Positions 1 through 62,404 of a DNA stretch of 64,000 nt are shown here, piece after piece. Position 1 is the stretch's first letter; every line of letters begins with the position of its first letter. Below the pieces are notes generated by a model that made no database searches, was not told where the DNA came from, and saw only the letters and a program-made list of their open reading frames with translations. A program made the translations under genes and the position numbers. This stretch comes from Terebella lapidaria (Eukaryota > Annelida > Polychaeta > Terebellida > Terebellidae), in NCBI GenBank assembly GCA_949152475.1, contig OX424568.1, forward strand, positions 8,779,667 through 8,843,666, written 5' to 3'.

Positions 1-1084
1 ATTTTGTGGCGACACATGTGTATATGTTGTTCCAATGTGTGATATCAATTTATCATTATACTAACCAACAATTATTTCTTTATTTTCACAAACTTTATGG
101 TACGCATGCTGGCATATATTATCAATGAGATTGGTTCCGTGGTTTGAAATTCTTGTCAATCGGATTCCAGCAATCAGTAATCAGCAAATGAACCTTGCGC
201 ACTAGCAGATTTACGTATGACAACACCGGTCAAATAATTTCAACCGATACTGAGAAAGATTTAATGATATTCTTGTAATTTTCGCAATTTTCTTTCTTTA
301 TAAAAATAGTTAATGTGGTTTATACAGTACGTAAAAATGGTGATCTAAAAGAATTAATCACAAGTGAGTATCATATAAGCATATCCACCAGAAAATATAT
401 TATCCTAGTATAAAAACGTACCTTTTTTGGCAATGAATTTTCATTGTTTCAAACATTATTAATCGCACATTTCATTGTTTTCTTTCCCAAAATTTTAGCC
501 ATTGGATATTTCAACATTTATGATGATAAAATGAATAAAACAAACATAAAAAGTACTGCGAGCTACGGACGGATACCTTCATATTAAAATGGTATACATC
601 AAAATCAAATTTACCGTCGGTGAAGCATAAATGTGTGTCTGTGGTGGGGTAATTTATTGATACAGCAATTGTTCGGACAGCTCGGATGATCCGATATACA
701 TATATCACAATATAATACGGACATGAATGGTTATTTAACTACACCCAGATATAATATGACTAGAATGAGTGATGTTTCCACGCTGTGAATTCATATAATT
801 ACCGGTATCCATTAAAATAAAATTTACAACATATGAATCATACCTCGTGTTTGTGTGTCAGTCTTTTTTCGGAACCACAATAATTCACTGTGCTTTTATG
901 ATTTAACTCGCGATGTATCACAATAAAATTGCAATGAATTTACTCATAGCAAAATGAATTGTCACACGTACATATCGGGGTTGGTATAATACAGCGAACA
1001 TGAGTTATGTGCTCACATCTAATATAAGCGCGACCATCGCAGCAATTCCTACATCGAGTCTTCGCCTGAAGACAGAACAGAAAG
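1..1084 (+). promoter_or_regulatory. Promoter region of copy 1
   Basis: This stretch resembles 57545-58502 upstream of copy 2, in the same order up to both start codons. Similarity is highest in the last 100 bases, which share GTATAATACAGCGAA and a TATA-like element. The duplication therefore included the promoter. The left limit of the duplicated block lies outside the window. No other gene is seen here. Confidence 0.6.
1023..1028 (+). promoter_or_regulatory. TATA-like box of copy 1
   Basis: TATAAG lies about 60 bases before the ATG at 1085. It aligns with TATAAA at the same place in copy 2, and the sequence around it is conserved between copies. This would put transcription start near 1053 with a short 5' leader. 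Confidence 0.5.
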
Positions 1085-1162
1085 ATGGGGAAGTTGTCGA
1101 CTGTCACTTTGCTGTTACTGGCAGCGATCTGCATGACCGTCGTGTTGGCGAAAAACAAGAAG
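1085..1162 (+). CDS. Exon 1: signal peptide
   Basis: It encodes 26 residues starting MGKLSTVTLLLLAAICM, with a hydrophobic Leu/Ala-rich core and a likely signal peptidase site near VLA/KN. It ends in a full codon before the donor GTGAGA at 1163. Copy 2 has the same exon with few changes. Confidence 0.85.
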
Positions 1163-4100
1163 GTGAGAATTGTTAACAAAAAACGGATGGTATTATTAGT
1201 GATGATTAAAGTTAATTGAACAGTCGTTATTCCCGGCAGCTCGTTGGTACGACGCAACTGTTCTTATTTTGATTTTTGTTTCGAAATTGTCAGTATTTCC
1301 CAGTAATTTAAACCAGGAAAAAATATTCAAACCGGGAATAAATCATTAAAACCAGAATTCTTTCCCAGAATAAATAGTTATTTACAGGTTTAAATAATTT
1401 ATTCCTGGTGTACATAGTTTTTCCCGGTATAAATAGTTTATACTTGCACCTTTCAGCTGGAACTTGTGTGCTGGACTAGCTTCACGAAAACTTATTTCAG
1501 TTCATACGCACTCCAATTTCTTACTTTTACATTCAATATCAAGAACTTCTGATTGAATTGCGAACTCTGAGCTCTTTTTAGGATACCGGACCTTTGATCC
1601 GATAACCTATTGGCATGGCGTTGCGTCCGTCGTCCGTCCGTCGTCTGTCATCCGTAAACAATTTTATCTTTAAAGTTTACGGTCGAATCTTTCTGAAATT
1701 TTGCACAAAGATGCCTAAAAATACTTCCAGAGGGAGGTATTTTTTCTTTTTCTTTTTTTCGCATTTTTTTTTCAGGATGGCGGCCGTTTTGACGAAAAAT
1801 TGCCAATTTGGGACTTCAGTAACTTTTTTTCTTATTGATGCATAACACTCTTCATATATACTCCTGTGATGTGTATAAGTTTCGTTGCGATTGAATCGCT
1901 CGAAGTGGGCCATTTTGGGCCCAAACTCGGCCCAAATGGAATTTTCCCATGTTGAACGGCCCTCTGCTTTATTATGGGAAACATTTTGCCTAATATTCCA
2001 CTTAATATTGAGATTAGAGATTAGGAATCAATTGTGGACATATAGGAAATGATATATGCTGCATATTCTGATGACCTTGAATTCGAACTTAGACCTCATT
2101 TTCAAGGTCAGAGCACAAAATGGCTAATATCTCGCTTATTATTGACTTTACAGCTTAGCAATCAATTGTGAACATATAGGAAATGATATATGTTGAATAT
2201 TCTGGTTACCTCGAACTTGACCTTTGACGTTATTTTCAAGGTCAGGGAACAAAATGGGTAATATCTCGCTCATTATCGAATTCACAGCTTAGGAATCCAT
2301 AGTGGACATATAGGGAATGATATATGCTGAATATTTTGGTGACCTTGAATTTGACCTTGACCTCATTTTCAAGGTCAGAGAACAAAAACAGTTAATATCT
2401 CACTTGTTACCGACTTTACAGCTTAGGAGTCAATTGCGAACATATTGGAAATGATATATGCTGAATATTCTCGTGAACTTGACCTTTGACTCCATTTTCA
2501 AGGTCAGATCACAAAATGGCTAATATCTCACTTAATGTCGACTTTACAGCTTAGGAATCAATTGTGGACATGCTAGAAATGATATGGGCTGAATATTCTC
2601 ATGAGCTCGATTTGACCCATGACCTTATTTTCCAGGGTATGGGACTAAAGGTTAATATCTAAAATATTCATTGTCCGGTAACTTCCCTTAGCCATTGGAC
2701 TAATTTTTTATAGTTGCAATGCCTTTGTATTAATATGAAACGATATAAAGGGCATTAAAACGTGATATCATTTGTTGCCTGTGACAACAAAAACCTGTTC
2801 GTAATGTCCACGAACAATTATCAAACACAGCAGAAACCTGAAAAGGAATCAGTTGTGAAATACAAAAATTATTTGAATTAATACGGTAGTACCTATATTA
2901 TTTTTACTACGATTGTTGTCAATATTTCAAAGACTCAAAATGTGGGGAGTTTACACGATGACATGATTGAGTTAAATATTGCTTGAATCGACAGAATTGG
3001 CTCTTTAGTTTGACATAATTTGGTTTTTAGTTTCGGTACATGGACATCATGCCCAGCATGTATACATAGTAATCAGCATTCTGTACGACTGTAGAGACCG
3101 GTCGAATATCTCCAATAGCGGGATAGAAAATCACATAAGTGTTGCCACCCGGCAAAGGTGACCTCTGAAATTTGACAACGATATTTCCATCATGCTGGTT
3201 TCCAATTTTCAGTTTACGCCTGTTTCGACGAATAACATTCAATTGTTGAACGTACTGTAAAATTAACACACAATACTCATTATTCTTACTTTCAATTCTC
3301 ATTTGCAGAAAGGACTGGAGAAGTGTTTCAAAGATGATGGAACACCAAAAGAGAAAGCGTGCAATCCGCGAAAGCTCAAGAAGATACTGTCTCGATGGTA
3401 TGACGACGTGCCAAATGAATTGAAAAAGAACATGACAGAGGAAGAGTTCATGAATACTCGTGGTTTGGGTAAGGACGGTCTGGCAAGAGTCCAAGCACTC
3501 GCAATGGAAGTGAGAGAAAAGATGGCGGAGGAGGATGGTGTTAGTGTGAGTATCAGACATATCAAAAACTGACATCATAAATATCGCTAATATTATCAAA
3601 TAACCTTGTAAAACAAAAGCCTCATACATAACTTTATGATTTTGAGTTCAAACTTTTTTTTCTGGACAGTCAAAAACAACACTGCTTTGTGACGACATGT
3701 TTTAGTGTTACAAAAGCCTAGAATAAAGACTCTCAGCCCGCTCGTTGACACGTGATGAAAGCAACAAACGTTACTACCTTTAATGGCTACTACATTCACT
3801 AACTACCATTACTTGTCCTAGTAAAACGAAACATCCAGCAACAGCTAGTGTTCCAAAGACCTGCAGTTCAATAGCCTTCGATATTATCAAAGACAGACTC
3901 CACCATGTGAAATATTACAGTGTGCTTATCTTTTGTGTACGAAATTGCATTTTCATATTCATCAGGTTACCAGTTGCGTACATCCGTCATCGTCCACTTA
4001 TCGTGAAATTTTGCACAAAAATACTTCCAAATAATTCCAGAGGGAGGAATTTTTTCAGTGTTTTATATGCCTTTTTCGACATGTCACAGACTTGACATGT

Positions 4101-10100: not shown

Positions 10101-13100
10101 AGAAAGGGCCAGAACGTGCCCCAAAAGGAAGAAATCTGTCCCCATACAACAAAATGTGCCACGTTTGTGACATTCATACAGTTATGACAAATATTCTCAA
10201 GACAACTTGAAGTTTGACCTTATTGTCAAGGTCAGAGCACAAAATGACTGATACTTTTTTTCGACTAAACTTTTTTCGAGCTTGGTAATCAAATGTGAAC
10301 AGATAGGACATGATATTCTGAATATTTCACGACATTGAATTTGACTCTTGATCTCATTTTCAAAGGCACATGACAAAATGGCTAATATCTCGCTTATTAT
10401 CAGCTTTACAGCTCGGGAATCAATTGTGCACATATATGAAATTATATGTGCTGAATATTTTCATGAGCTTGAACTTCGATCTTATTTTCAAGGTCAGAGC
10501 ACAAAATGGGTAATATCTCGTTTATGACCGACTGTACAACGTGACAAACAAGTGTTAACTTACAGGAAATGATATATGCCAAATATTCTGATCTTTCTTT
10601 TGACCTTTGACTTCATTTTCAAGGTCACAGGTAAAAAAAGCTAATATATCTCATCACTGAATTTACATCTTAGTGATCAATTGTGGACATTCGACCAGTG
10701 ACCTCATTTTCACGGTCAAGTGACAAAATGGCTATTATACCAAATATAAAACATATACCCCGGTAACCTTTCTTAGAGCCTGGGTTAATTTTTTCAATAG
10801 TGATATCAAAATTGAAATTTTCATCCAGCTCTAGTCCGAAAATATTTATTGAATCAGAACCAGCTTTGCTCGATATATTATTTCCCAAAAACATAAATTG
10901 GAACGTCGCAGGATTAGCTTTCACCATATTTTCACTGAACCAGCGTATTGCTTTGAGGGTATCTCGTTGTAGAGTATTTTTCATTGTGAGAAAATCTTTG
11001 TGTATATATGATATGGTGTTGTCGTCAGCGTAATTGTATAGGATAACATACATCTGCTTATCTCTACATCTGAAATGTGGTACAATGTATTTTTCAGTCG
11101 CGGGTATCCATGAAAAACCCAGAGGAGTTCGATGACATGATATTTGACGAAGATCAGCTCCAAGCCATGCTGCAGGATCAAGACAACACCAACAATAACC
11201 AGAGCGGCAGGCTTGTTATGAAAAACAAAAACCGGCTTTGGCCACTGAGACGAGGAAATCCAAATACCAGAGAAATACGCTACCTATTTGACAACACATG
11301 GACACGTATGTTTTTACGTGATAAGGATGCACCCCCCCCCCCTCTCCCCAAATGGGAGTAAAACGAGATAATATTGGCCTAAATGCCACAACTCTAACGA
11401 AATATGCGAGAAATATGTAACGAAATATTAACGAAAAATTTTGTTTCGTACGACCATCGGTCATGCAGTAAATCATGGGGAATGGACTAAAGAAAAATAC
11501 AAAATTATAAGAGAAAATTATAAGGGTTCTTACAACGTTTTGATTTTGACCTTTTCCATGACCTTGACCTTGTCGTTCATTATCGAGCTGTAAAATTCCA
11601 CAGTATTGTTCCTATTATCAAGGCACATCTCCTTGGTGAATAGATTGAAAGCTGGCTTCACAATATGCTCTTGAATTTTAGAACATTCAGAGGTCGTAAA
11701 ATCTTTTGCCCAAATTTAAACCCAAATTTTCGACATTGGTCGATAATGGGGTGTTTTGGTATTAGGACCATCGGTCGTGGAGCATCCGATCGGGAATTGG
11801 ACAAAGACAATTACAAAAATAGTTGGAAAATTTAATATTGATTAGAAATGGAGTTATAGCATATTGTGTTTCCACTTTTTCGGTTGCCACGGCAACCAAT
11901 TCTGTTCGATTTTGACAAAAATTGAGGAGGACCGAGACACTATGCCGCTTCATCCCTATAAGTTTGAAGTCGATAGGACCATTTGTTGTCAAGTTATGCG
12001 CGCGGAAATTCAAAAGTCCTAAGATCGTGACCCCCAAATTTTCGACCTCAGGCGATAATGGGGAGTTTCGGACCTAAGACTATCGGTGGTACACCATACG
12101 ATCGGGAATTGGCAAAAAAAAATACAACAAGAAAATGCGTCATGGCTGCCCAAAAACCAACATCGCCTGATGAAAAAAATAAAAGATTCCATGTTGATTT
12201 AAGCACTTGCTATTTAACTGCATATATCACTAACCTCTCTACACGGGATATTCGTTGCCGGAAACAACGAATTTGTTTTAAATTGTGGCCAATTTTATTA
12301 CCAGGAAATCCACCACAAATAGAAGGCAGCTTATTCATACCAATGACATATCCAGAAATTCAAATAACCCTATTATGGTGTGTATACTCAAATGCAGCAA
12401 CACCCTAGACATGGTATTACATATTTATTTGCCACTTCCTAGCAGTTCATGCATACATTTGATCTGTGGTGCCAAAGTAATACCAACAACAGGGAAACAG
12501 AATTATAGTAGTACTATATGTTTACTGTAATACCTGGCTGTGACCAGGATTTTCCAGCAACAATGGGTCATGATTAAAATCCCATTTACTACTACTGTAC
12601 AATTTTGTTATATTTGCCATCCAGGCTGTACGAAACTTTCATCACATCTATTACTATGATCTAGGAGTTCCTTAAATGCAAATAATGATGGATATATGAT
12701 ACTAGTAGGTTGCGCACATTATACATGAACCTTTGACAAAATGTCATGAAAAATCTATGATGATCAATAACAATATTGATAAGATAAGATAGAACTTTGT
12801 ATTACGTTGGTATAGCATGAAACAATAAACATTAACTACAAGGTTATTGACCGCAGAGGCGGATCCAGGAATTTTGATTATGGAGGGCGCAAAGAAGCTA
12901 AATGCGGTCTGGGGGTTCCGGGGGCGCCGTAAGGCCCACGAGAAAATTTGCATTTTGGTGTTTTCTGAGAGCATTTAGGGTGGTTTCTGGAGACATTTCT
13001 GGGACTATTGGATGTCTATTTCGTGTATTAATCAGGGACTGGTACAGGAAACTTGGTTCCAAGTTTTGGGTGGCGCTGAATCCCGATATGACCAAATATA

Positions 13101-16100: not shown

Positions 16101-19100
16101 TAATAAGTAGACAATATGAACAATAAATGACAGCTGTGTAATATTAAAATAGCGATTCGAGCAACACTGCTACTGTTACAATAATTTCAATCTTGAACTG
16201 CTGTACTAGACGCTCCCGCGTTGCTTGGAGGTTAGCGGCGACCCGACTTGTATTCTTGAGTTTTCCCACGTAGTTCTTCCCCCGTATATATGTATACGTC
16301 TGTTATCGGCTCTCTAGTTCAGCCCTGTTCTAGGCGTTTGTCACAACGTCTGTTACATCATGTCAGGTTCCCGACCCTGAAGCTAAGTGAATCAAACAAA
16401 TAGCACAACATGTCCAACCCACCTAACTATCTTACCCTATCCCCGACCTATCGATAAAATCCAACACAAGTAGTAGATAGAGCACGAGCACCCGTGGGTA
16501 TGGCTCATACACGAGGTAATTCTCGATGCGTTAGCCGAGAGATTACCGAGTGCATGAGCCATACCCACGGGTGCGAGTGGTCTATCTGACTTTTGTACCA
16601 CGGTTGACACCTTTAACAATAGGCCAGACTGTGGTCTATTCAACATACACCACTGTCTGCCGTGGAATATAGGATCACACTTGAGTGAACCCATGGTACA
16701 AGTCAGATAGACCACTCGCACCCGAGTTTCCACGGCAGACAGTGGTGTATGTTGAATAGACCACAGTCTGGCCTATTGTTAAAAAGGTGTCAACCGTGGT
16801 ACAAATACATGTACTCACGGTGAAAGTGTCAAGTCCTCCACACAATTTCACATAATACTGCTAATTTCACATAGCACTACATCGCACTATCAATACTGCC
16901 TCTGTCTGGTGCAGTTGCTGATCTCCCAGTTGCATTGTAACAAACACAAATCAGCCTCGAGTTTATATATCCTAGTGAGCGTCTGACAGATTTTATCTCT
17001 CATCGTTGACGAGTTTGCAAAAACAAATTCTGGGTCCAGAATACGTGTATGTTCCTTTCAGCACACAAAAAAGTGCAATTCCGTGCAGCCATTATATCGA
17101 TCCTACTAACAAATTAACTCACGCGACTCAAAACTTTTTCTCTTAGGTGGACATAACACATTTGTTCAACCATTTTCATATGCTCAAATATCGTGCCCAA
17201 ATGATCACTCTCGTTCACAGGTACCGTGGATATCTCTGCGGTGCTCCAAGCGATGGTTGATTGGGAGCGTGTTAGTTGTTACCGTTTTCGACGAGTCCAC
17301 GGCACTCTTTTCAACTGGGGGATCGCTGTTATGACGAGGAGGAATAGTGGTTGTTCTGCATCTCTTGGGTATAGAAGTACACAGGCCAGACTCATTAATT
17401 TCGGTACCGGTTGTCTTACGGTAAATATTGGGTTGCCCATTGTTTCCCCTGATACATCAATATGCAATGAATCGTACCATGTACCACTAGTACATTTTTA
17501 ACATGTGTCCATTTTATTACTATTCAGCGAGGCATGATTATGCATCTAATTGGACATTCCATCGGAATTCAACACGAACATCAGCGGCCGGACAGAGACA
17601 GTTTCGTTACTATTAATTGGGCCGCTATACCGCTATCACAGCGAGGCAATTACCGCATCTTGAATCCAAATGACGTTGATAACCATGGTGTACCATATGA
17701 TCACTCATCACTGTGGCATTATTCTACGACGGTGAGTACCCTAGAATTGAGTCCTGAAATAGTGCCCTGTATATTTTTAGGTTACCGGACCTATGGTCCG
17801 ATAACCTATTGGCATGGCGTTGCGTTCGTCGTCCGTCGTCGTCCACATTTTTATCTTTTTTGTTTACAGGCGAATTTTTCTGGAATTTTGCACAAAAAAA
17901 CTTAAAAATAATTCAAGAAGGAGGTATTTTTTATTTTTTTTATTTTCGCATCTTTTTTTCAAAATGGCGGCCGTTTTCGACGAAAAATGCCTGATTTTGG
18001 ACTTTGGCGGCCATTTTCTCAAAATCTTTTCAGTACCTTTTGTTCTTTTTGATACATAACACTCCTCGTATGTATTCCTATGATGTCTATAAATTTCGTT
18101 GCGCTTGATTCGCTCGAAGTGGGCCATTTTGGCCCAAACTCGGCCCAAATAGGACTCTCCCATGTTAAATTCTCCTATGCTTTATAATGGTCCAAACCTA
18201 CATTATGCCTAATATCTCACTTAATATTGAGATTAGAGACTAGGAATCAATTGTGGACATATAGGAAATGATATATGCTGAATATTCTGATGACCTTGAA
18301 TTTGACCTTCGACCCCATTTTCAAGGTCACAGGACAAAATGGCTAATATCTCGCTTATTATCGACTTTACAGCTTAGGAATCAATTGTGAACATATAGGA
18401 AATGATATATGCTGAATATTCTCGTGACCTTGAATTTGACCTTTGACCTCATTTTCAAGGTCACATGACAAAATGGCCAATATCTTGCTTATTATCGACT
18501 TTACAGCTTAGGAATCAATTGTGAACATATAGGAAGTGATATATTCTGAATATTCTCATGACCTTGAATTTGACCTTTGACCTAAATTTCAATGTCAGTC
18601 ATTTTATTCTCAAGGTCAGAATACAAAATGGCTTATATCTCGCTTATTATCGAATTTACAGTTTAGAAGTCCATAGTGAACATATAGGAAATGATGTATG
18701 TTGAATATTTTGGTGATCTAGAATTTGACCTGTGATCCCATTTTCATGGTCAGAGAACAAAATGGCTAATATGTCGCTTATTATCAACTTTACAGCTTAG
18801 AAATCAATTGCGAATATAGAGGAAATGATATATTTGTTGAAAATTTCATGGCCTTGAAGCTATCAGTGACTTTATTCTCAAGGTCACTGGACAAAAGGCT
18901 AATATCTAAAATGTATATTGTCCGGTAACCTTTCTTAGCCCTTGGGCTAATTTTTTTGAATGGCCCTGTGCTTCCGAAATTGTGCGGGCTTCAATTTAAC
19001 TCTATGCTTACACACCTCCCGAAGTATTTGAACAGGCAAATCATATGACTTATACTCCACAAGAGTTCCAGACAGAGTATCATTTATCATTTCCACATAC

Positions 19101-22100: not shown

Positions 22101-24367
22101 GACTCGGACAAATGGGCTCGGCGATAGGTCAATTGACCCCAAATGCCCCCAAAAGTTGTCCGAGTTTCACAAAATACGTCAGAAAACTTCTCTTTGGCCA
22201 ATAATAACGTTTTGCAGAATATGTCGAAAATGACGTAAAAAGACTCAGACAAATTGGATTTGGGATAGGTCAATTCACAATAACATCGAGTTGATATTAC
22301 ACTCTTCGATAACATGCCGATTGTAGGCTGACATCAATTTTCTTGATTCCCAGTTTGAAAACACTGTATGTATTGTTTTAATATTATTTTAGAGGATCAC
22401 ACCAAGGAACCCTTTATTTCGCAACAACATGGGCCAGCGGACGTGGGGACCAACATTTTTTGATTTGAAAGTCGTTCACAAGCAAGGATGTCTTGAACGT
22501 AGGTGTATGCTCAAATTCGCCCTACAGAATAAAATAGTTGTTGTATGAATATTGAACATGCATTCCTCTAATGATTTGATTGTTGCACATGTATGTACTG
22601 ACATCTTAAGGGCGGAATGGCGTGCCTTGTGAATCGACTATACCATGTCGGAGAGACGGATTCACAAACTACGAGGACTGTAGGACTTGCATTTGTCCCT
22701 GGGGTCTGGCTCCACCGTTTTGCAGACTAGAACCCAGTCCAAGTGGTAGGTCACTGTGAGAATTTTTGTCATCAGATTCATGCGACATTATTATAATATA
22801 TCTAACATCGAATTCGATATTATCATAGGCTGAATTAGAATCATATTATTTGAACAACGTATAAATAATGACAATAATATTTGTTTATTTATTTATAATG
22901 CGCAGTACAAGTTGGAAGAATAATAATAATATTAAAATATTCATACGTAAAAGGATAAATATCCATAAGAATGAAATCGCTGCAGTCTGCCCAAATGCTC
23001 GTGTACATGACGTGCCGGTGGGACGCACATCGTGCGTCACTGTAAATGGACCGGGTCTCAGGGGCGCCAGATGTGCATGGTTCCTCAGAGTGAGTATGTC
23101 AGAACACATCGATATCAGAGTAGGCTAAAGGAGGTATTTTTTTTAGGTTACCAGACCTTTGGTCCGATAACCTATTGGCATGGCGTTGCGTCCGTCCGTC
23201 CGTCCGTCCGGCATTAACATTTTTATCTTTTAAGTTAACGATCGAATCTTTCTGAAATTTTGCACAAAAATGCCTAAAAATATTTTGAGAAGGAGGTATT
23301 TTTTTGTTTTTTGATTTTCGCATTTTTTTCAAAATGGCGGCCGTTTTTGTCGAAAAACGCTCAATTTTGGACTTTGACGGCCATTTTCTCAAAAATTGTC
23401 TGATCAGTTTTGAGTTGTTGGTTTCAAAAGATTCCCCTCATATACCTCTTTGATATGTATAAGTTTGGTTGCCCTAAATTCGCCGGTCTCCGTGTGGCGG
23501 CCATTTTGAATTTTTGGCGGGTCGGCGAAAAAAATTTTTTTCGCCCCAAATCGCATTACTATCCATTTTGGGCCATTTCTAGGGCAAAAAAAATTTTTCA
23601 TTCTTTGAAAAAAATTTTGGACTTGAAAAATTTTCGTCACTTTTTCCCTTCATAATGGGAGCTGCCCGGACTGTACTCATAGAACGCTTGAAGATAGAGC
23701 TTAGAAATTGGCACTTTCAAATGGGAAGTCATATATGGCGACTTGTGTGGTGACCTTGAATTTGACCTTGGATGACATTGAAAGGTCAAAACAGCCATTT
23801 TGGGGTCAAAAAATGCCCAGATTTGCCTCTATAGATGAAATGCTTGTAGATAGAGCTCATGTTTGCATTATGAACATATCGCAAGACATATATGGCACAA
23901 CTAATGATGACCTTGAACTTGACGTCAGATGACCTTGAGTGCCAAATGTCTGACTTGGAATGTGTAAATTGACCTGAGCGGCCTAAACGATTCCACCCAG
24001 ATATATCTTTGTATTATGAACATATAGAATATCAAATGCCGCACACATACATGTAATGGTGACATCGAAGTTCACACAGATGACCTTGATTGGTAAATTT
24101 CGAGGTCTTATGTTTACACTGCGAACCTTGATTGGTAAATCTCAAGGTCTGTTACCTGCCAATGCTGCCATGGCCAAACCAAAATTGTCCGGTAACCTAT
24201 CTTAGCCTTTGGGCTAATTTTTTGTTTACAAATATAACAGAATTCTATCTGATTTTACAGAGAGGGTTCAGGACAAACAACATACGACTGTGGTTTCCAG
24301 AATTCCGTTTGGCCAGTTGCTCTGACACATTTATTGAGATAAAACAAAACATTCGGCGCTATCCCTG
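1085..24367 (+). CDS. Astacin-like (M12A) protein, copy 1: nine exons, probable pseudo-protease, 3' end not found
   Basis: Nine exons (1085-1162, 3309-3545, 11098-11305, 17221-17420, 17528-17731, 22393-22498, 22611-22745, 22986-23089, 24261-24367) join in phase with GT/AG borders to give about 459 residues. The order is signal peptide, prodomain (about residues 27-190), astacin peptidase domain (about 190-345), Cys-rich EGF-like module and first part of a CUB domain. Astacins are secreted zinc endopeptidases made as proenzymes. All three zinc His, the family RPDRD motif, the Tyr after the Met-turn and the four core Cys are kept. The catalytic Glu is Leu and the Met-turn Met is Trp, so peptidase activity is unlikely (inference). 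The CUB domain stops at a good donor at 24368; no later exon was recognised. Introns are full of repeats. A broken tandem copy lies at 58.5-62.4 kb. The family call is firm; the role is unknown. Confidence 0.88.
1575..2711 (+). mobile_element. Helentron-like non-autonomous element, family I, intron 1
   Basis: The left end is an imperfect palindrome (GGATACCGGACC arm), followed by a CCGT-rich stretch and a conserved segment with ATGGCGGCCG. Then come degenerate tandem units with TGACCTTGAA and CAAGGTCA. The right end carries TTGTCCGGTAAC and a small hairpin next to CTAATTTTTT. It sits in the intron between exons 1 and 2. No protein is encoded; the open frames across it are low-complexity. Confidence 0.7.
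2712..3308. other. Intron 1 remainder, no gene
   Basis: This is AT-rich intron between the element and exon 2. A minus-strand open frame across 3027-3629 overlaps exon 2 antisense and resembles no known family. A polypyrimidine stretch and TTTGCAG precede exon 2. Confidence 0.5.
3309..3545 (+). CDS. Exon 2: prodomain, first part
   Basis: It encodes 79 codons, phase 0 at both ends, from AAAGGACTGG after TTTGCAG to AGT before GTGAGT. The peptide is charged and Lys/Glu-rich with two Cys (KCF, KACN) and probably helical, for example RKLKKILSRWYDDVP. It belongs to the N-terminal propeptide and lacks similarity to known domains. The same exon in copy 2 is 10 bases shorter. Confidence 0.8.
3962..4850 (+). 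repeat. Decayed family I Helentron-like fragment
   Basis: It starts with a weak copy of the left end (GGTTACCAG, then ATCCGTCATCGTCC and GAAATTTTGCACAAA). It continues into AGGTCA-type spaced repeats such as TGACCTTAGATGACC. No clear right end is seen. Confidence 0.45.
4313..4326. repeat. Poly-C run
   Basis: About 14 C in a row. Similar runs occur at 5352-5374, 11333-11342, 26652-26668, 40103-40116 and 57236-57250, and as G near 14907. Confidence 0.8.
5045..5320 (-). mobile_element. Possible Ty3/gypsy-like integrase fossil
   Basis: On the minus strand a short reading stretch has IRSDNGPCF followed by a Trp/Tyr-Leu-rich segment, recalling the second Asp region of an LTR-retroelement integrase core. 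Nothing else of such an element is seen next to it. It is old and broken if real. A plus-strand open frame just upstream (4876-5079) matches no family known to me. Confidence 0.3.
5380..6560. other. Intron 2 stretch, no gene seen
   Basis: AT-rich sequence with scattered short open frames on both strands; none has a recognisable motif, and no terminal repeats were found. Confidence 0.4.
6570..7195 (+). repeat. Family I tandem array, ends missing
   Basis: Four to five degenerate copies of the 134-base unit occur (GGAATCAATTGTGGACA, then AAATGATAT, TGACCTTGAA and CAAGGTCA). A perfect DR1 site TGACCTTTGACCT lies at 6819-6831. Both element ends are absent. Confidence 0.65.
7196..8200. other. Intron 2 stretch, no gene seen
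   Basis: It includes a short GC-richer block near 7205-7300 that looks like a dispersed repeat, then AT-rich sequence next to the 3' side of the THAP transposon. No coding motif was found. Confidence 0.35.
8200..9830 (-). mobile_element. THAP-DDE DNA transposon A (ISL2EU/Harbinger-like), decayed
   Basis: The minus strand carries, in order: a THAP zinc-finger first half (start codon at 9824, HCCAPFCSND); a second THAP exon from 9258 (RVCSTHF) after TTTGCAG; a helix-turn-helix segment (FGISQSSVSRILITW, about 8840-8780); and a DDE nuclease (8715-8215) with DCT, SDKEIT, ADKGF and HVERE. A cut-and-paste transposase would bind the ends through THAP. The THAP exon has one extra T (a frameshift) and a TAG where Trp is usual, and more breaks follow, so it is dead. 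Terminal repeats were not identified. It lies antisense in intron 2 of copy 1. Confidence 0.8.
10187..10797 (+). repeat. Family I element, right part with tandem units
   Basis: Degenerate 134-base units with TGACCTT and AAGGTCA end in the family right terminus (CCGGTAACCTTTCTTAG, then AATTTTTT). The left end is lost. A LINE RT fragment abuts the right terminus. Confidence 0.65.
10798..11053 (-). mobile_element. LINE reverse transcriptase fragment
   Basis: On the minus strand the protein has YADDNTIS (the RT catalytic YADD box) and then AIRWFSENMVKANPATFQF, typical of Rex/CR1-like LINE RT. It is about 85 codons long, cut at both ends, and stops 45 bases before exon 3 of copy 1. Confidence 0.75.
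11098..11305 (+). CDS. Exon 3: prodomain end and mature N-terminus
   Basis: 208 bases, phase 0 in and phase 1 out, between TTTTTCAG and GTATGT. It encodes an acidic segment (EEFDDMIFDEDQLQAML) that resembles the region around the inhibitory Asp motif of astacin propeptides. An Asn-rich linker and then RLWPLRRGNPN follow, where RxWP is usual near the mature N-terminus. Confidence 0.85.
11440..12130. repeat. Degenerate 310-base tandem repeat, about 2.3 copies
   Basis: The landmark CATCGGTC plus GGGAATTGGAC recurs near 11455, 11768 and 12078. The middle unit holds a perfect inverted repeat, GTTGCCACGGCAAC (11883-11896). Confidence 0.55.
12131..12850. other. Intron 3 stretch, no gene seen
   Basis: AT-rich sequence without recognisable motifs, tandem structure or terminal repeats. 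Confidence 0.35.
12853..12942. repeat. Dispersed GGCGGATCCAGG-type repeat
   Basis: GAGGCGGATCCAGGAATTTT followed by a GC-rich GGGGGTTCCGGGGGCGCC block is a short dispersed repeat type. A related minus-oriented copy lies at 39840-40140. Confidence 0.4.
12943..13327. repeat. 191-base tandem duplication
   Basis: The block 12943-13133 is repeated directly at 13134-13327. The copies differ by one base (GGGACTGG against GGGACGGG) and one extra TA in an (AT)n run, so the event is recent. Each copy starts AAAATTTGCATTTTGG. Confidence 0.85.
13575..13700 (-). mobile_element. Tc1/mariner-like transposase scrap (HTH)
   Basis: The minus strand reads TTQADVARIYGVSQSVISRL, a Tc1-type paired-like helix-turn-helix. 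No catalytic domain follows, so only the DNA-binding start of the transposase is left. Confidence 0.6.
13780..15050. other. Intron 3 stretch with one orphan open frame
   Basis: An ATG at 14382 in a good context (AAAATGGCGGAGCC) opens a 34-codon frame ending at a donor-like CAT/GTAAGC near 14486. No partner exon or family is known. A short hairpin (TTGGGGCGAAGCCCCCAA) lies near 14126. The rest is featureless. Confidence 0.3.
15052..15173. mobile_element. Foldback MITE, about 122 bp
   Basis: The ends are inverted copies: GGGATAAAACTGTG with TCGATGTCTGTGAC on the left, and GTCACAGACATCGA with CACAGTTTTATCCC on the right. Arms are about 34 bases. No coding capacity. Confidence 0.75.
15174..16470. 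other. Intron 3 stretch, no gene seen
   Basis: It holds a (CT)n run at about 15478-15505 and otherwise no recognisable feature. A minus-strand open frame near 15460-15699 matches no known family. Confidence 0.35.
16475..16805. repeat. Nested palindromes / foldback MITE pair
   Basis: A first hairpin pairs GCACCCGTGGGTATGGCTCA (from 16488) with its inverse ending near 16584. A second pairs about 16594-16665 with 16730-16803, sharing TTGACACCTTT and GGCCAGACTGTGGTCTATTC. The segment GGTGCGAGTGGTCTATCTGA also has an inverse copy near 16700-16725, so the units interlock. Confidence 0.7.
17221..17420 (+). CDS. Exon 4: astacin domain, N-terminal half
   Basis: 200 bases, phase 1 in and phase 0 out, from TTCACAG to GTAAAT. 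It encodes AVLQAMVDWERVSCYRFR (the usual start of the domain with the first Cys), then SGCSASLGYR and FGTGCLT, which match the Cys-containing strands just before the zinc helix. The segment between the first two Cys is hydrophobic and degenerate compared with active family members. Confidence 0.9.
17528..17731 (+). CDS. Exon 5: zinc-binding helix and Met-turn, catalytic Glu replaced
   Basis: 68 codons, phase 0 at both ends, between TATTCAG and GTGAGT. The zinc signature reads HLIGHSIGIQHEHQRPDRD: the three zinc His, Gly, second Glu, Arg and DRD are kept, but the general-base Glu is Leu (CTA, 17546-17548). The usual SVMHY turn reads SLWHY, with Trp (TGG, 17714-17716) for Met, while the Tyr that can bind zinc is kept. 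Each substitution needs at least two base changes. A spliced, in-frame exon with both changes suggests a retained pseudo-enzyme. Confidence 0.92.
17775..18950 (+). mobile_element. Helentron-like element, family I, complete (intron 5)
   Basis: The left palindrome at 17780-17806 has arms GGTTACCGGACC and GGTCCGATAACC around TAT. A CCGT-rich stretch, a conserved segment with CAAAATGGCGGCC, and tandem units with an exact 134-base period (18243, 18377, 18511) follow. The right end has GTCCGGTAACC (inverse of the left arm, 18920-18930) and hairpin TTAGCCCTTGGGCTAA (18935-18950), ending CTAA before a T-run. DR1 sites TGACCTTTGACCT lie at 18437 and 18571. It starts about 45 bases after the exon 5 donor. 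Confidence 0.8.
18951..21348 (-). mobile_element. LINE (L1/Tx1-like) with NADAR-bearing ORF1, RT missing
   Basis: On the minus strand the element starts GAGGCAAGATGGCGGAT at about 21348, like the 5' end of an L1-type LINE. ORF1 follows from about 21160 with a zinc-knuckle-like stretch (NCKRSKEETHKIEDC, second Cys changed to Ser), then a NADAR domain. ORF2 starts near 19860 with an APE endonuclease (LTLNVRGP, DIVCMQETH, later FTDHRGALLTYG). The sequence ends before any RT, at the right terminus of the Helentron-like element. Loss of the 3' rather than the 5' part is not how LINEs truncate on insertion, so a later deletion is likely. Several stops and shifts make it inactive. Confidence 0.8.
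19895..20347 (-). pseudogene. NADAR (YbiA-like) domain of LINE ORF1
   Basis: Minus-strand motifs in NADAR order are EEPLSNFFPCEL, FSSTEQMFQ with SKA after it, WDKVKVQKMTMIWVNKYKN, ILVEATRDNFWASGL, and WPGKNKMGSLLMVIRDD. NADAR proteins act on NAD/ADP-ribose or riboflavin intermediates; YbiA is an N-glycosidase. One in-frame TAG lies between FQ and SKA. The usual WGxG core is WASG, so activity cannot be assumed even in the ancestor. It follows the zinc-knuckle segment and precedes ORF2, so it belongs to the LINE, not to a host gene. Confidence 0.8.
21349..21758 (+). repeat. Family I right part with tandem units
   Basis: About three degenerate 134-base units lead into ATTGTCCGGTAACCTTTCTT and a weak copy of the terminal hairpin. 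The left end is replaced by the 5' end of the LINE. Confidence 0.65.
21985..22274. mobile_element. Two tandem MITE units with shared TIR
   Basis: Units 21985-22135 and 22129-22274 each run from CAATTGACCTATCGCC plus AAGTTGTCCGAGT to ACTCGGACAA plus GGCGATAGGTCAATTG, which are inverse copies. The second unit is slightly diverged. The pair ends about 118 bases before exon 6. Confidence 0.7.
22393..22498 (+). CDS. Exon 6: C-terminal part of astacin domain
   Basis: 106 bases, phase 0 in and phase 1 out. It encodes ITPRNPLFRNNMGQRTWGP, then FFDLKVVHKQGC, matching the usual TIxPKDP-IGQR-LSxxDIxKINxLYxC end with the last core Cys. The loop usually found between the Met-turn and this segment (about ten residues) is missing, so it is either shortened or an exon was overlooked. 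Confidence 0.85.
22611..22745 (+). CDS. Exon 7: EGF-like Cys-rich module
   Basis: 135 bases between ATCTTAAG and GTAGGT, phase 1 at both ends. It encodes CRRDGFTNYEDCRTCICPWG and ends near PPFC. This is the CxNGGYxDPxxCxxCxCPxGxxGxxC type of EGF-like module seen between astacin and CUB domains in many invertebrate astacins. Confidence 0.82.
22986..23089 (+). CDS. Exon 8: CUB domain, first strands
   Basis: 104 bases after GCTGCAG, phase 1 in and phase 0 out, before GTGAGT. It encodes SCVTVNGPGLRGARCAWFLR; the CAWFLR piece fits the CxWxI strand of CUB domains. Confidence 0.72.
23145..24217 (+). mobile_element. Helentron-like element, family I variant B, intron 8
   Basis: Left end AGGTTACCAGACC with GGTCCGATAACC, then (CCGT)n, CAAAATGGCGGCC at 23330, and a body without the clean 134-base array. 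It does hold spaced TGACCTTGAA and AAGGTC motifs. Right end TTGTCCGGTAACC, hairpin TTAGCC/GGGCTAA and CTAA before T. It starts about 55 bases after the exon 8 donor. Confidence 0.75.
24261..24367 (+). CDS. Exon 9: CUB domain, middle strands
   Basis: 107 bases after GATTTTACAG, phase 0 in and phase 2 out. It encodes NNIRLWFPEFRLASCSDTF followed by IEIK, the typical CUB core with one Cys. A donor GTGAGT follows; without splicing the frame ends at once with TGA. The second half of CUB was not found downstream, so the gene either continues with an unrecognised exon or is cut here. Confidence 0.78.
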
Positions 24368-28730: not shown

Positions 28731-30185
28731 AGTCTCGCCACAGTGTAAACTCCCAAAGAAACCAGAAACTAGTATGTCCAGTGGATCTTAGATCTCCGAT
28801 GAGTATTAGGCCGCTGGTAAAATATAACGCACGAGCACTACCCCCTCACCACTTCATCTAAATCCCACTAACATTTCTTGAATCCCAGAAGCATTCTGAA
28901 CACGATTTGGAATGTTGCCAAGAAAAAGGTTCAGACGAAGTTCATGTCAACAGCATTTAAAGAATTGTATCCCTAGAGGCATTGTTCATATTGTTTACAG
29001 GTATACCCCCAGTAGTAAGATGTTTAGAGGCTACGGGTTGTTCAGAATACAGATGACAGTCTATTGTCGAAATACCTTTGAAATGTCTGCACTGGTTGCC
29101 TGCAAAATCCCATATTGACTTGTTTATGGTCCAGAAACCTTACACGATCAAGCTCCACAGTTCATTCGCCCTTCGATAACTGCCTTTAAATGTACGCAAC
29201 ATTCAGTGGGTGGTGTAGTTTCAACTTGTGGCTCATAAAGGCAACTCCTAAATATGTATCGAATGCCTCACATCTGAAATACTCATACTCAGACCTCATT
29301 CAAACATTTGTTTGTATGAATCCCGCACTACAGGCGGGATGAAGCAAGACCACTAATCTACAATGAAACATATGTTGATAGCTACCATTAATGGATCACG
29401 CTGAAAGCATCATGATTATTCCAGGTTCTGTTCGTCAGTCAGTCCCCCTGCCCAGGTCGGAGACAGGTTCCTGGTTCACTTCCGGAGCAGGATAAATGGC
29501 TGGTCTGTCAGATTTAGGATGTGCTGGCGGGGAATCTGATTATGAGGATGGCATCGCACACACATAGTCTACTGACAGGGATTTGTCTGCCACGGAACAG
29601 AGACATTCCAAAATAAATACCATTGCATCATGATAATGGAGTTGTTGTTTTAACTGCTGTGGGAATATTTTTGTTGCAGCAGTGTGAATATAACGGTAAC
29701 CACACTATCAAAGGACGTTGTGAAGTTACATACATGTATGGCAAATAACAATGAGAAGACTATTAACTTGAAAGAATGTGAGTTCGAAACAATTACATTG
29801 AGGCTACACACAACATGAAGTACAGAAATAAATTTGTGACCGAAATTGGAATTGTGATTGGGAAATTGAATCGTTAGCTCGAACTTACAAATTGTTAACT
29901 TGAATTTGAAATTTGATACCTCGATTGTAATATCAGTATGACAATTTTTGTTAGTCGTAAGCAAGGTGTAAAATGCTGGTTTCGAATCTTTCCGAACCGG
30001 TATTGACTTTTGATGATATTTATTTTCAAGGTAACAATTTTTAAATTCGTTAGAACGGAATTGGAACACCATAAAGACTTGTAGAACGGTTTTGACGACA
30101 CTGCAATAGTGCGAATGTGATGTAAGATGATGTGTAACCACACTATGCTAATGAAAATGGAATGTAAAATAAATATATAATAATG
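28731..30185. other. No gene seen; one dispersed repeat
   Basis: The part 29930-30010 shares a diverged segment (GGTGTAAAATG, TTCGAATCTTTCCGAACC-like) with 33260-33310 on the other side of the LINE. No coding family was recognised. Confidence 0.35.
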
Positions 30186-58502: not shown

Positions 58503-58580
58503 ATGGGAAAGTTGTTGACTGTCACTTTGCTGCTACTAGCAGCGATCTGCATGACAGTCGTTCTGGCGAAAAACAAGAAG
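58503..58580 (+). CDS. Copy 2 exon 1: signal peptide
   Basis: 26 codons, phase 0, before GTGAGA. It differs from copy 1 by one residue in the visible signal sequence (Ser to Leu at position 5), with more silent changes. Confidence 0.75.
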
Positions 58581-58941
58581 GTGAGAGAACAAAACCTGGC
58601 ACTAGTAGTATTAATAATGATAATTAATAATGGTGGTTTGTGTAAATATTACAAGCGTGTTCACCCAGTTGCAAATTGTTGTTTATATGGCGAAGTCCTA
58701 TGTACAATAATGATCGATATAAAATAATGAATGGTCTCAAATCCTTGGTGATACCCACACTTAATCAGTAGTCAAACATTGAGGGGGAAATATCCACTGT
58801 TATTGTACCGTTGTCCCAAAGGCAAAACATATTATATGTATATTATGCATGGTCAAAAAACAGTACTTTCTGTTTGTAGATTTCCAAAAGCAACATAGAA
58901 TATGTCATATATGTCTTCATATATGTCTTCCTATATGTCTT

Positions 58942-59182
58942 GATCAAGGTTCGCAGTGTGAACATTTGATCTTGAGATTTACCAATCAAGGTCATCCGTT
59001 TTAACTTCGATGTCACCATTACATGTATGTGTGTGGTATTTGATATTCTATGTGTTCATAATACAAAGATATATCTGGGTGGAATCGTTTAGGACGCTCA
59101 GGTCAATTTACACATTCCGAGTCAGACATTTGGCACTCAAGGTCATCTGACGTCAAGTTCAAGGTAATCATTAGTTGTGCCA
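58942..59182 (-). repeat. 241-base partial family I copy, duplicated at 59581-59822
   Basis: Nearly identical to part of the complete element at 59496-60551 (TGTGTGTGGTATTT against TGTGTGCGGCATTT). Both lie in intron 1 of copy 2. Confidence 0.75.
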
Positions 59183-59495
59183 TAATCATTAGTTGTGCCA
59201 TATATGTCTTCCTATATGTCTTCCTATAGTCCACGTTGTTCAAATATGATATCCCAATGTAGAGCTACTATTGATTTGCTACTAATTAGTGCACTGCAAC
59301 AGGCAAGGCAATCTACATGTATGTTTGGTGAGTTTATACAAATCTATAATTCGAAGCATGTACTAGTATACAGGTGTACAATTTCTCGATATAAGTTAGT
59401 CAACTTATCAAGATAATATCTCGATTATCGAGTTACATTTATCGTGGATATATCAGATATGTACGTTCACAAATAGAACAAGAGTAGTTTAAAAA

Positions 59496-60551
59496 TTAGC
59501 ACAAATGCTAAGATAGGTTACCGGACAATTTTGGTTTGGCCATGGCAGCATTGGCAGGTAACAGACCTTGAGATTTATCAATCAAGGTTCGCAGTGTGAA
59601 CATTTGATCTTGAGATTTACCAATCAAGGTCATCCGTTTTAACTTCGATGTCACCATTACATGTATGTGTGCGGCATTTGATATTCTATGTGTTCATAAT
59701 ACAAAGATATATCTGGGTGGAATCGTTTAGGACGCTCAGGTCAATTTACACATTCCGAGTCAGACATTTGGCACTCAAGGTCATCTGACGTCAAGTTCAA
59801 GGTAATCATTAGTTGTGCCATATATGTATTCCTATATGTTCATAATGCAAACATGAGCTCTATCTGCAAGCATTTCATATATAGAGGCAAATCTGGGCAT
59901 TTTTTGACCCCAAAATGGCTGTTTTGACCTTTCAAGGTCATCGAAGGTCAAACTCAAAGTCACCACACAAGTTGCCATATATGACTTCCCATTTGAAAGT
60001 GCCGATTTCTAAGCTCTATCTTCAAGCGTTCTATGAGTACAATCCTGACAGCCCCCCTTATGAGGGAAAAACGTTCAAAAAATTTTTCAAAGGGTGAAAA
60101 AAAAATTTTGCTTTAGAAATGGCCCAAAATGGATAGTAATGCGATTTGGGGCGAAAAACTTTTTTGCGCCGACCCGCCAAAAAATTCAAAATGGCCGCCA
60201 CACGGAGACCGGCGATTCAAGGGCAACCACCAAACTTATACATATCACAGAGGTATATGATGGGAATCTTTGAATCAAAAACTCAAAACTGATCAGACAG
60301 TTTTTGAGAAAAAGGCCGTCAAAGTCCAAAATTGAGCGTTTTTCGACAAAAACGGCCACGATTTTGAAAAAAATGAGAAGATCAAAAAAAAAAAAAAACC
60401 TCCTCAAAATATTTTCAGGCATTTTTGTGTGAAATTTCAGAAAGATTCGATCGTAAACTTTGAAGATAAAAATGTTAATGCCGGACGGACGGACGGACGA
60501 CGGACGCAATGCCATGCCAATAGGTTATCGGACCAAAGGTCCGGTAACCTA
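59496..60551 (-). mobile_element. Helentron-like element, family I variant B, reverse orientation
   Basis: Right terminus TTAGCACAAATGCTAA with AGGTTACCGGAC after it; left palindrome GGTTATCGGACC/GGTCCGGTAACCT at 60522-60550 next to (ACGG)n. It lies in intron 1 of copy 2, in the opposite orientation to the one in intron 1 of copy 1. The two sit at different positions, so they are independent insertions. Confidence 0.78.
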
Positions 60552-61301
60552 AAAAATAAGGTGGAAATCTCCTATCATGGTAAATCATGTTCGGATGCGT
60601 CATAATTGACCAGCGTGGTCAAGGAGTTTCCCGACCGGAAGAAGAAAGTGAAAACAGATTAAAAACAGATGAAAAAACCCTTAAAAACTTTTAGTTGAGT
60701 GGCACCAATCTTCTTCCGCACCTTAGAGGCACAACAGTGGGATATTTGGGAAAACGGGAATTGAACTGGTCTTGATAAAAAAAACGTCATGGTGACTGAA
60801 TATATGTTTCCATTTTTAAAAATATAATAATGGTCTCGTATGGGAGTCGAACTGAGCATAAACCTTGTTCTGGTTATTATATATATGATTTACAATGATA
60901 CCATTCGGGTTTAAATATGTTTTAATATTATTTAGCTGACTAGATATTAGTTTGAGATTTGCATTAGGGCGTTTTCAATTATCAGTATACAATTTAATGA
61001 TCAATTTATGATCGAAGAGTCTGACCAACCCCCCAAACATGATATAAGCACAAACTTTTGCTTGAATCGACAGAATCAGCTCTTAACAAGGGTATTATAC
61101 AGAGCATATATATACAACAATATACAGTGTAAACGTCATGGGAAATCACATAAACGTTCCAACCTGGCATCTCTGAAATCTATTATGAGGCATTGATATT
61201 TTCAATTTTTACGTGTCATTCACATATTATATTCGAATATTCAATGTGCAATAACACTTCACACATTATGTATTATTCCTACCTCCAATTTTCACTTGCA
61301 G
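60552..61301. other. Intron 1 of copy 2, no gene seen
   Basis: Short stretches near 61060-61090 (CTTGAATCGACAGAATC) match the end of intron 1 in copy 1 (near 2985), confirming the duplication. Otherwise there are no features. Confidence 0.4.
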
Positions 61302-61528
61302 AAAGGATTGGAGAAGTGTTTCAATGATGATGGTACACCTAAAGAGAAAGCGTGCAATCCGCGAAAGCTCAAGAAGATACTGTCTCGATGGTATGACATC
61401 GTACCAGATGAGTTGAAAAAGAAGACGAGTTCATGAATACTCGTGGTTTGGGTAAGGACGGGCTTGCAAGAGTTCAAGCACTCGCAATGAAAGTGAGGGA
61501 AAAGATGGCGGAAATGAATGGCGTCAGT
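61302..61528 (+). pseudogene. Copy 2 exon 2, frameshifted
   Basis: 227 bases against 237 in copy 1. Splice sites (TTGCAG, GTAAGT) are kept. The missing 10 bases fall in the NMTEEEF segment (copy 1 AAGAACATGACAGAGGAAGA, copy 2 AAGAAGACGA). After the gap the old frame resumes at MNTRGLGKDGLARVQALAM in another phase. Confidence 0.85.
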
Positions 61529-62196
61529 GTAAGTATCCTACATCTAATTTGCAAAAACTCAGTATTACTTTACAATCGTGGTTCACAAACTATATCGCAC
61601 GTTCCTGATCCCAATGTTTGGGAAAAACGATTCCGGACCGCCAAATATACTGAACACTTATATAAAAGCCTCATTTCGAAAAGTTATACCTTATGATATA
61701 ACGCGTTCATAATTCTGTTCAGTACATACATGCTTTATAGCGAAATTGTACACACTGTGCACGTGTTATAGTAACCATTTCTAGGGCTTTTCATTTCCCT
61801 CTGAGTGACCCCGCCCGTCCACACTCGATGAAAAAGCAACCACTAGTTGTTGTTAATGTTGAACATAACATATGCATAACAGATGCAGCAGCGTGATTTA
61901 CAAAAACTGACTTATCTTGATCTTGAAATTTTTGAAAATGAATTATTCCTGAGATATATATGATTGTGAGTTTAAATCTTAAATTGCAATTGTAAACTGT
62001 CAAGTGCAATGTCTGGAAAGGCAACTGGTACAACATGTTCAAATATCGCCTACATCCAAATGAACAATTGATGTGTAATATTCAACATTCCTCATGGTTT
62101 ACCCAGTTGATTCCACAGGGTGAACGCATACAAATGCGGATGAAGTCGTTTTCATACACAAATCACTGGTTCATCTCAAACTTTATATTCTTTCAG
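61529..62196. other. Intron 2 of copy 2, no gene seen
   Basis: Only 668 bases, against 7.55 kb in copy 1. The difference is repeats and transposons, so most of those inserted into copy 1 after duplication or were never copied. Confidence 0.5.
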
Positions 62197-62404
62197 TTGA
62201 GGGTGTCGCAGAAAGACCCAGAGGAGTTCGATGACATATTATTTGACGAGGATCAGCTCCAAGCCATGCTGCAGGACCTAAACAACACCAGCAATAACCA
62301 GAGCGGCAGGTTTGTTATGCAGAACGTGAACCGTCTCTGGCCGCTCAAACGAGGAACACCCAATACCAGAGAAATACGATACTTATTCGACAGCACGTGG
62401 AAAA
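62197..62404 (+). pseudogene. Copy 2 exon 3, donor lost
   Basis: 208 bases, open throughout, with LFDEDQLQAMLQDLNNTSNN and RLWPLKRGTPNTREIRYLF as in copy 1. The base pair after the exon is TT, not GT, so normal splicing to exon 4 is not possible. Confidence 0.8.

Follow-up and report, generated by a model that had tools for sequence, protein, structure and literature searches.

An astacin-type exon in the genome of Terebella lapidaria, in which the catalytic glutamate is replaced by leucine, raises the question of whether the gene that holds it is maintained as a non-peptidase protein or is decaying. The exon lies at 17528-17731 on the forward strand of the window, the 64,000-nucleotide stretch analysed here (C15:8779667-8843666 of a 761.6-Mb genome), and the gene is termed W below.

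Active site and exon structure of W

The exon, exon C, reads HLIGHSIGIQHEHQRPDRD...SLWHY with Leu where the catalytic Glu belongs, and its full translation on the forward strand is RGMIMHLIGHSIGIQHEHQRPDRDSFVTINWAAIPLSQRGNYRILNPNDVDNHGVPYDHSSLWHYSTT. The same frame matches the Pfam Astacin profile (72 bits, E 6.5e-20), so the reading is not due to chance; the reverse strand contains stops. The exon is bounded by the splice sites ATTCAG/CGA and ACG/GTGAGT (the slash marks the exon border). Compared with the HExxHxxGxxH motif of active peptidases, the zinc motif HLIGHSIGIQH lacks the catalytic Glu, and the Met-turn SLWHY departs from SxMHY in that Met is replaced by Trp while Tyr is kept. Two family hallmarks, the Glu that follows the third His and the RxDRD stretch, are present (QHEHQRPDRD). 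The initial annotation, which had described the two replacements in an open, cleanly spliced exon with the zinc His, RPDRD and Tyr retained, is thereby borne out by the translation and the canonical splice sites. It had also listed the core Cys as retained; the candidates for these lie in exons B and D, and exon C itself contains none. Three of the Cys align with those of BMP1 and TLL1, and the fourth (QGC, exon D) is placed by position only.

Each replacement had further been said to require at least two base substitutions. This holds for the Glu position, where GAA of the nearest paralogue faces CTA, whereas the Met to Trp replacement may not be a change of the W lineage, since Trp is common to five paralogues that keep HExxH. 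The Trp Met-turn, which had been taken as a second mark of inactivation, was rejected as such because five of the six Trp-bearing genes of the cluster retain HExxH.

W is a complete 10-exon gene (1085-29539, forward strand) that encodes 497 amino acids in one frame with a terminal stop, and all nine introns are canonical GT-AG (Table 1). The remaining exons were located with the help of the closest paralogue, which lies 48 kb further downstream and is 70% identical over exon C. The protein consists of a signal peptide, a propeptide, an astacin domain and a Cys-rich tail in this order; signal peptide and propeptide are encoded by exons S, P2 and A, and the signal was judged by hydrophobicity. 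Queried without P2, the protein scored 113.4 bits against Pfam Astacin PF01400 (cut-off 22.5; profile positions 5-181 of 189), a score above the cut-off that places it in the astacin family M12A. The Pfam search of the tail returned no EGF and no CUB family, only the astacin domain being matched, and the EGF-like (exon E) and CUB-like (exons F-H) labels were therefore derived from Cys pattern and position. The propeptide carries FDDM, which was aligned by eye to FxGD with a one-residue gap. The P2 domain (~79 residues, CF.DDG...AC...LLSRWYD.VP...MTEEE...T.G.G) is conserved across the cluster genes. A 294-bp conserved stretch at 3267-3560, considered as an intronic enhancer, was rejected as such and proved to be exon P2.

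Table 1. Positions of the exons of W and of associated features in the window
Feature	Position	Strand	Basis or remark
Conserved upstream region (putative promoter)	507..1084	+	Three genomic places, one upstream of each sibling gene, 77-80% identity
Exon S: start codon and signal peptide MGKLSTVTLLLLAAICMTVVLAKNKK	1085..1162	+	25 of 26 residues identical to sibling at 58503-58580; donor GTGAGA
Exon P2: propeptide domain KGLEKCF...MAEEDGVS	3309..3545	+	Relatives in most cluster loci searched; no match in Pfam
Exon A: propeptide with FDDM (possible aspartate switch), start of mature domain (RLWP...)	11098..11305	+	75-81% identity to sibling; splice sites
Exon B: N-terminal half of astacin domain, three Cys	17221..17420	+	Pfam Astacin 24.5 bits, frame 17205-17501; splice sites
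Exon C: zinc site HLIGHSIGIQHE and Met-turn SLWHY	17528..17731	+	Translation, Pfam, splice sites
CTA (Leu) at position of catalytic Glu	17546..17548	+	Sequence; GAA in sibling
TGG (Trp) at position of Met-turn Met	17714..17716	+	Sequence; common to five Glu-bearing paralogues
Exon D: end of astacin domain, ~8 residues shorter than in sibling after Met-turn	22393..22498	+	Sibling comparison; splice sites
Exon E: Cys-rich, EGF-like (from Cys pattern)	22611..22745	+	No Pfam match
Exon F: CUB-like region, first part (putative)	22986..23089	+
Exon G: CUB-like region (putative)	24261..24367	+
Exon H: end of CUB-like region (putative), ...CWRGI and stop TGA	29425..29539	+
5' part of L039, the closest sibling (exons S, P2, A)	58503..62400	+	Remaining gene beyond the window

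W combines an intact gene with the loss of a catalytic residue, as is characteristic of pseudopeptidases. Without the Glu, the zinc-bound water would stay unactivated and no cutting would follow, and Leu is incapable of serving as a base; with three His and a Tyr, a zinc site can form. W is predicted to be without peptidase activity because the general base is lost, the zinc ligands being kept, and the absence of peptide cutting proposed in the initial annotation thus stands as a prediction. It is very improbable that W is still a weak or altered peptidase, in which another residue or a zinc hydroxide replaces the general base: the zinc ligands and the family-specific Glu do remain, and HExxH persists in the five relatives that share the Met-turn Trp, but Leu cannot take over as the base, and a non-systematic look identified no compensating acidic residue nearby. 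The available text of PMC9848320 also speaks against residual activity, describing the E93-type glutamate as the general base and as required for catalysis.

A further departure, absent from the initial annotation, is that W lacks ~8 residues just after the Met-turn compared with the closest paralogue. This missing segment could harm the fold, and it can be argued to reflect either a cleft that no longer needs an enzymatic shape or a weakened fold.

Nested perfect inverted repeats at 16475-16805 (arms of 56 nt that match at 100%, plus others of 46, 25 and 23 nt) form a foldback-like element just upstream of exon B. Beyond exon H, LINE-type endonuclease and reverse transcriptase frames occupy 30491-33051 on the reverse strand. 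DDE_Tnp_4 transposase frames at 8215-8748 and 55049-55609, both on the reverse strand, are placed alike with respect to the two sibling astacin genes.

Selection on W and the state of its siblings

A self-written branch codon model (GY type, F3x4) was fitted to W and its siblings, with L047 or L051 as the outgroup. Over all ten exons, the three-gene fit gave a W branch omega of 0.31 (LRT against 1, 37.8). With the outgroup L047, the three topologies gave 0.324, 0.445 and 0.334 (LRT against 1 of 25.95, 4.20 and 24.72, respectively), and the best-scoring topology is the one that rejects neutrality most weakly (omega 0.445, LRT 4.20, approximate 95% range about 0.26-0.95). W did not differ from the background in any topology (LRT 0.69, 2.70 and 0.88). 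No stop was seen in 495 codons of W, against 9.2 (best topology) or 15.6 expected if the branch had been neutral throughout. Among the parts of the gene, exon P2 has the lowest W branch omega (0.12), and the three-gene fit yields 0.30 for exons B-D together (LRT 17.5). Earlier fits with fewer exons, or with the more distant outgroup L051, were less clear-cut. Exons A-C gave 0.41, a set of eight exons gave 0.51, and exons D-H by themselves reached 1.32; with L051, one topology of the eight-exon fit reached 1.08, and neither this value nor that of 1.32 differed from 1. Once exons D-H of L042 were included, the three-gene fit gave an omega of 0.34 and the fits with an outgroup gave 0.38-0.56, the value of 0.56 having an LRT of 1.9. 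The fits made without exons D-H of L042 and without exons S and P2 are superseded by the ten-exon fits. Averaged over its branch, which includes the time before the Glu loss, W is under purifying selection. The initial annotation had proposed that dN/dS well below 1 would support a maintained pseudo-enzyme; the ten-exon values of 0.31-0.45 lean to this side, though they come from paralogues only and from a branch that spans time before the loss.

The region upstream of W points in the same direction. A stretch of 662 bases (507-1168) matches three genomic places, one for each sibling, and the JC branch lengths of the part before the ATG (445 gap-free columns of 614) are 0.066 for W, 0.125 for L039 and 0.114 for L042. 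The upstream region of W is thus the best conserved among the three siblings. By comparison, the silent divergence of the W branch amounts to ~0.36 when three genes are fitted; with eight exons, the best topology puts it at 0.20. With this region and its open frame, W looks live.

The siblings differ in their fate. L039 (C15:8845146) keeps HEIGH, but a 10-bp deletion in its exon P2 shifts the frame, its exon B contains a TGA, and no in-phase donor was seen by eye after its exon A. The HEIGH-bearing L039 is a dead gene, and the Glu-less W is the intact copy of the pair. The third sibling, L042, keeps the Glu (HEIGH, with SLWHY) and has equivalents of all ten exons, with splice sites checked in part. 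Because its closest sibling is a pseudogene, the neighbourhood of W is one that loses genes.

W itself may accordingly be a pseudogene at an early stage, with a recent loss of the Glu in a dispensable gene and a constraint left over from the time of the active enzyme. The Glu may have been lost recently, with decay since then, as up to 33% of the W branch may be neutral in the best topology. The broken L039, the ~8 residues missing after the Met-turn in W alone, the omega of 1.32 for exons D-H in one fit, and the near-copies in the cluster, one with a stop (exon D of L040), are in line with such a course. Against it, the ten exons, splice sites and zinc ligands of W are intact, its upstream region is the slowest of the three, the full-gene omega is below 1 in all topologies tried, and two further Glu-less neighbours have no stops in their aligned parts. 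We regard early decay as rather unlikely. It is improbable, in turn, that W is a zymogen-like storage or matrix protein, in which the propeptide and Cys-rich tail are maintained and the astacin domain is a mere scaffold. P2 does show the lowest omega among the parts of W and is present across the cluster, but exons B-D are constrained too and keep the zinc ligands. The reading that we favour, as reasonably probable, is that W is a live ten-exon gene for a secreted non-peptidase astacin homologue (a pseudo-astacin), most likely acting by binding.

Glutamate losses across the astacin cluster

The census covers the Glu position at 47 of the 48 listed catalytic-exon places (C6:26882759 was left out); the list comprises the best-scoring candidates only, and the astacin family in the genome may exceed it. 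Eighteen genes were grouped as the cluster set by similarity, a common exon set and position, namely 16 genes of a tandem array on C15 (8.80-10.05 Mb) plus two genes on C9 that resemble them. The catalytic Glu is absent from 3 of these 18 genes and from none of the 29 others read (Fisher p 0.050), L070 and L071 being distant members among the 29. The three Glu-less genes carry Leu (W, HLIGH), Phe (L013, HFIGH) and Val (L026, HVFGH) in its place, and all of them retain every His of the zinc motif, the Glu that follows the third one, and the Tyr. A Met-turn Trp is found in 6 of the 18 genes, five of them with the Glu, against none of 22 others in which the motif was read. The almost identical L019 and L020 (2 of 18) have Phe for the Tyr ligand and keep the Glu. 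Taken together, departures from the canonical active site at Glu, Met-turn or Tyr occur in 10 of 18 cluster-set genes and in none of 22 others with both motifs read. The loci of L019 and L020, L041 and L044 (C15:8927664 and 9249200), are near-identical while lying >300 kb apart, and both read SVMHF with an intact HExxH.

A maximum-likelihood tree was built for 16 of the 18 genes, leaving out L052 and L053, which are near-identical to L051, and using no outgroup from outside the family. W and two genes that carry the Glu form one group (support 100). L045, the locus of L013, is nested in a Glu-bearing group (support 100), and L049, the locus of L026, forms a separate long branch; weak nodes include those joining L039 with L042 (66) and the group holding L045 (65). 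Since W, L045 and L049 sit apart in the tree, three independent losses of the Glu are the simplest reading, the one in W being private to it. An artefact of assembly or sequencing at the Glu codon of W is hardly credible: the codon is known from one assembly, but an error would have to account for two substitutions in a single codon of an otherwise intact exon and for a Glu lost at three separate loci to different residues.

The other two Glu-less genes also appear constrained. Branch omega is 0.21 for L045 (LRT 13.1, exons A-E) and 0.16 for L049 (LRT 13.4, exons A-C, a long branch), and no stops occur in the aligned parts of either. Further exons were found beyond A-C in L049; exons F-H of L045 were not found within its locus. 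In astacin zymogens, according to the available text of PMC9848320, an aspartate switch keeps the enzyme silent. The L049 propeptide reads WEGG where relatives have the Asp-bearing FDD or WDD, an alignment made by eye that suggests a loss of this switch. Such a loss would fit expectation, because latency is unneeded without catalysis.

The Met-turn Trp arose at least twice, since it is present in L050 and absent from the closely related L051, and gene conversion is a possible source of this pattern. The exons C of L050 and L051 (C15:9980051 and 9995651) are very similar, yet read SIWHYR and SIMHYG, and the more distant L047 also has SIWHYR, which hints at gene conversion. Other cluster loci show signs of turnover. 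L040 is a near-copy of L043 with a stop in exon D (C15:8872102-8872212) and HEIAHAMEAPHE (Gly to Glu) as its zinc motif, and is probably a pseudogene. Within L048 (positions 1-4141, C15:9390000-9394141) and into L047, ~35 tandem copies of a 118-bp unit carry the CUB-like exon F; the unit is exon F of the neighbouring astacin gene turned minisatellite, and some copies have stops.

Known pseudopeptidases and the putative role of W

Non-peptidase homologues are listed in MEROPS across many families. Among metzincins, the available parts of PMC11266112 describe pseudo-ADAMs of family M12, such as ADAM7 (HQLGHNLGMQHD) and ADAM29 (HHLGHNLGMNHD). Like these, W is a metzincin with a replaced general base, all three His kept, a secreted or extracellular location and a presumed binding role; unlike W, ADAMs keep the Met of the Met-turn, are membrane proteins and belong to another subfamily.

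W resembles the M12A astacins with EGF and CUB domains, as outlined in the available part of PMC2824743, in that a signal peptide, a propeptide and an astacin domain are followed, judging by position, by a single EGF-like and a single CUB-like region, and in keeping HxxxHxxGxxHE and RPDRD. It differs from them in the Leu for Glu, the Trp for Met, the lack of the AFS segment after the Met-turn, and an extra conserved propeptide exon that has no Pfam match. The closest solved structures, with P2 omitted from the query, are Tolloid-like 1, a hatching enzyme and BMP1; the catalytic domains of Tolloid-like 1 and BMP1 (PDB 3edi, 6bsm, 3edg) match W with E 4.4e-19 and 3.4e-18. Unlike W, these two read HELGH and have several CUB domains, and they are active enzymes (PMC9848320, available text).

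In the open literature, including the accessible parts of PMC2824743, PMC4826915, PMC5753285, PMC4398375 and PMC4460706, no described astacin pseudopeptidase was found, and no description of a mixed arrangement of cutters and binders in one cluster was found for astacins. The available text of PMC11266112 covers ADAMs; astacins appear in it a single time, listed as a metzincin family, and no astacin pseudopeptidase is named. The sequences in PMC9848320 were, by its available text, chosen for an intact zinc motif, and Glu-less astacins would be missed by such a census because that motif is required.

The W protein would be expressed, folded, zinc-binding and inactive, and it probably binds rather than cuts because the residue needed for cutting is lost. 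With Leu in place of Glu, its zinc-bound water would not be activated and no peptide would be cut, while the zinc site could still form through the three His and the Tyr. The cleft and the Cys-rich tail may then hold substrates or partners of the active proteases of the cluster without cutting them, and W may act as a decoy or regulator of these enzymes or of their substrates; the initial annotation had proposed a decoy, lectin-like or inhibitor-type pseudo-enzyme. More tentatively, as a reading that falls somewhat short of probable, the C15 cluster may be a repeated birthplace of maintained pseudo-astacins, in which cutters and zinc-bearing binders control one another or capture ligands.

Pseudopeptidases are already familiar from the ADAMs. 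The cluster, in which active-type, Trp-Met-turn and Glu-less members adjoin, offers a direct test of decay against a repeated route to binding, and lets one ask whether a Trp Met-turn permits activity.
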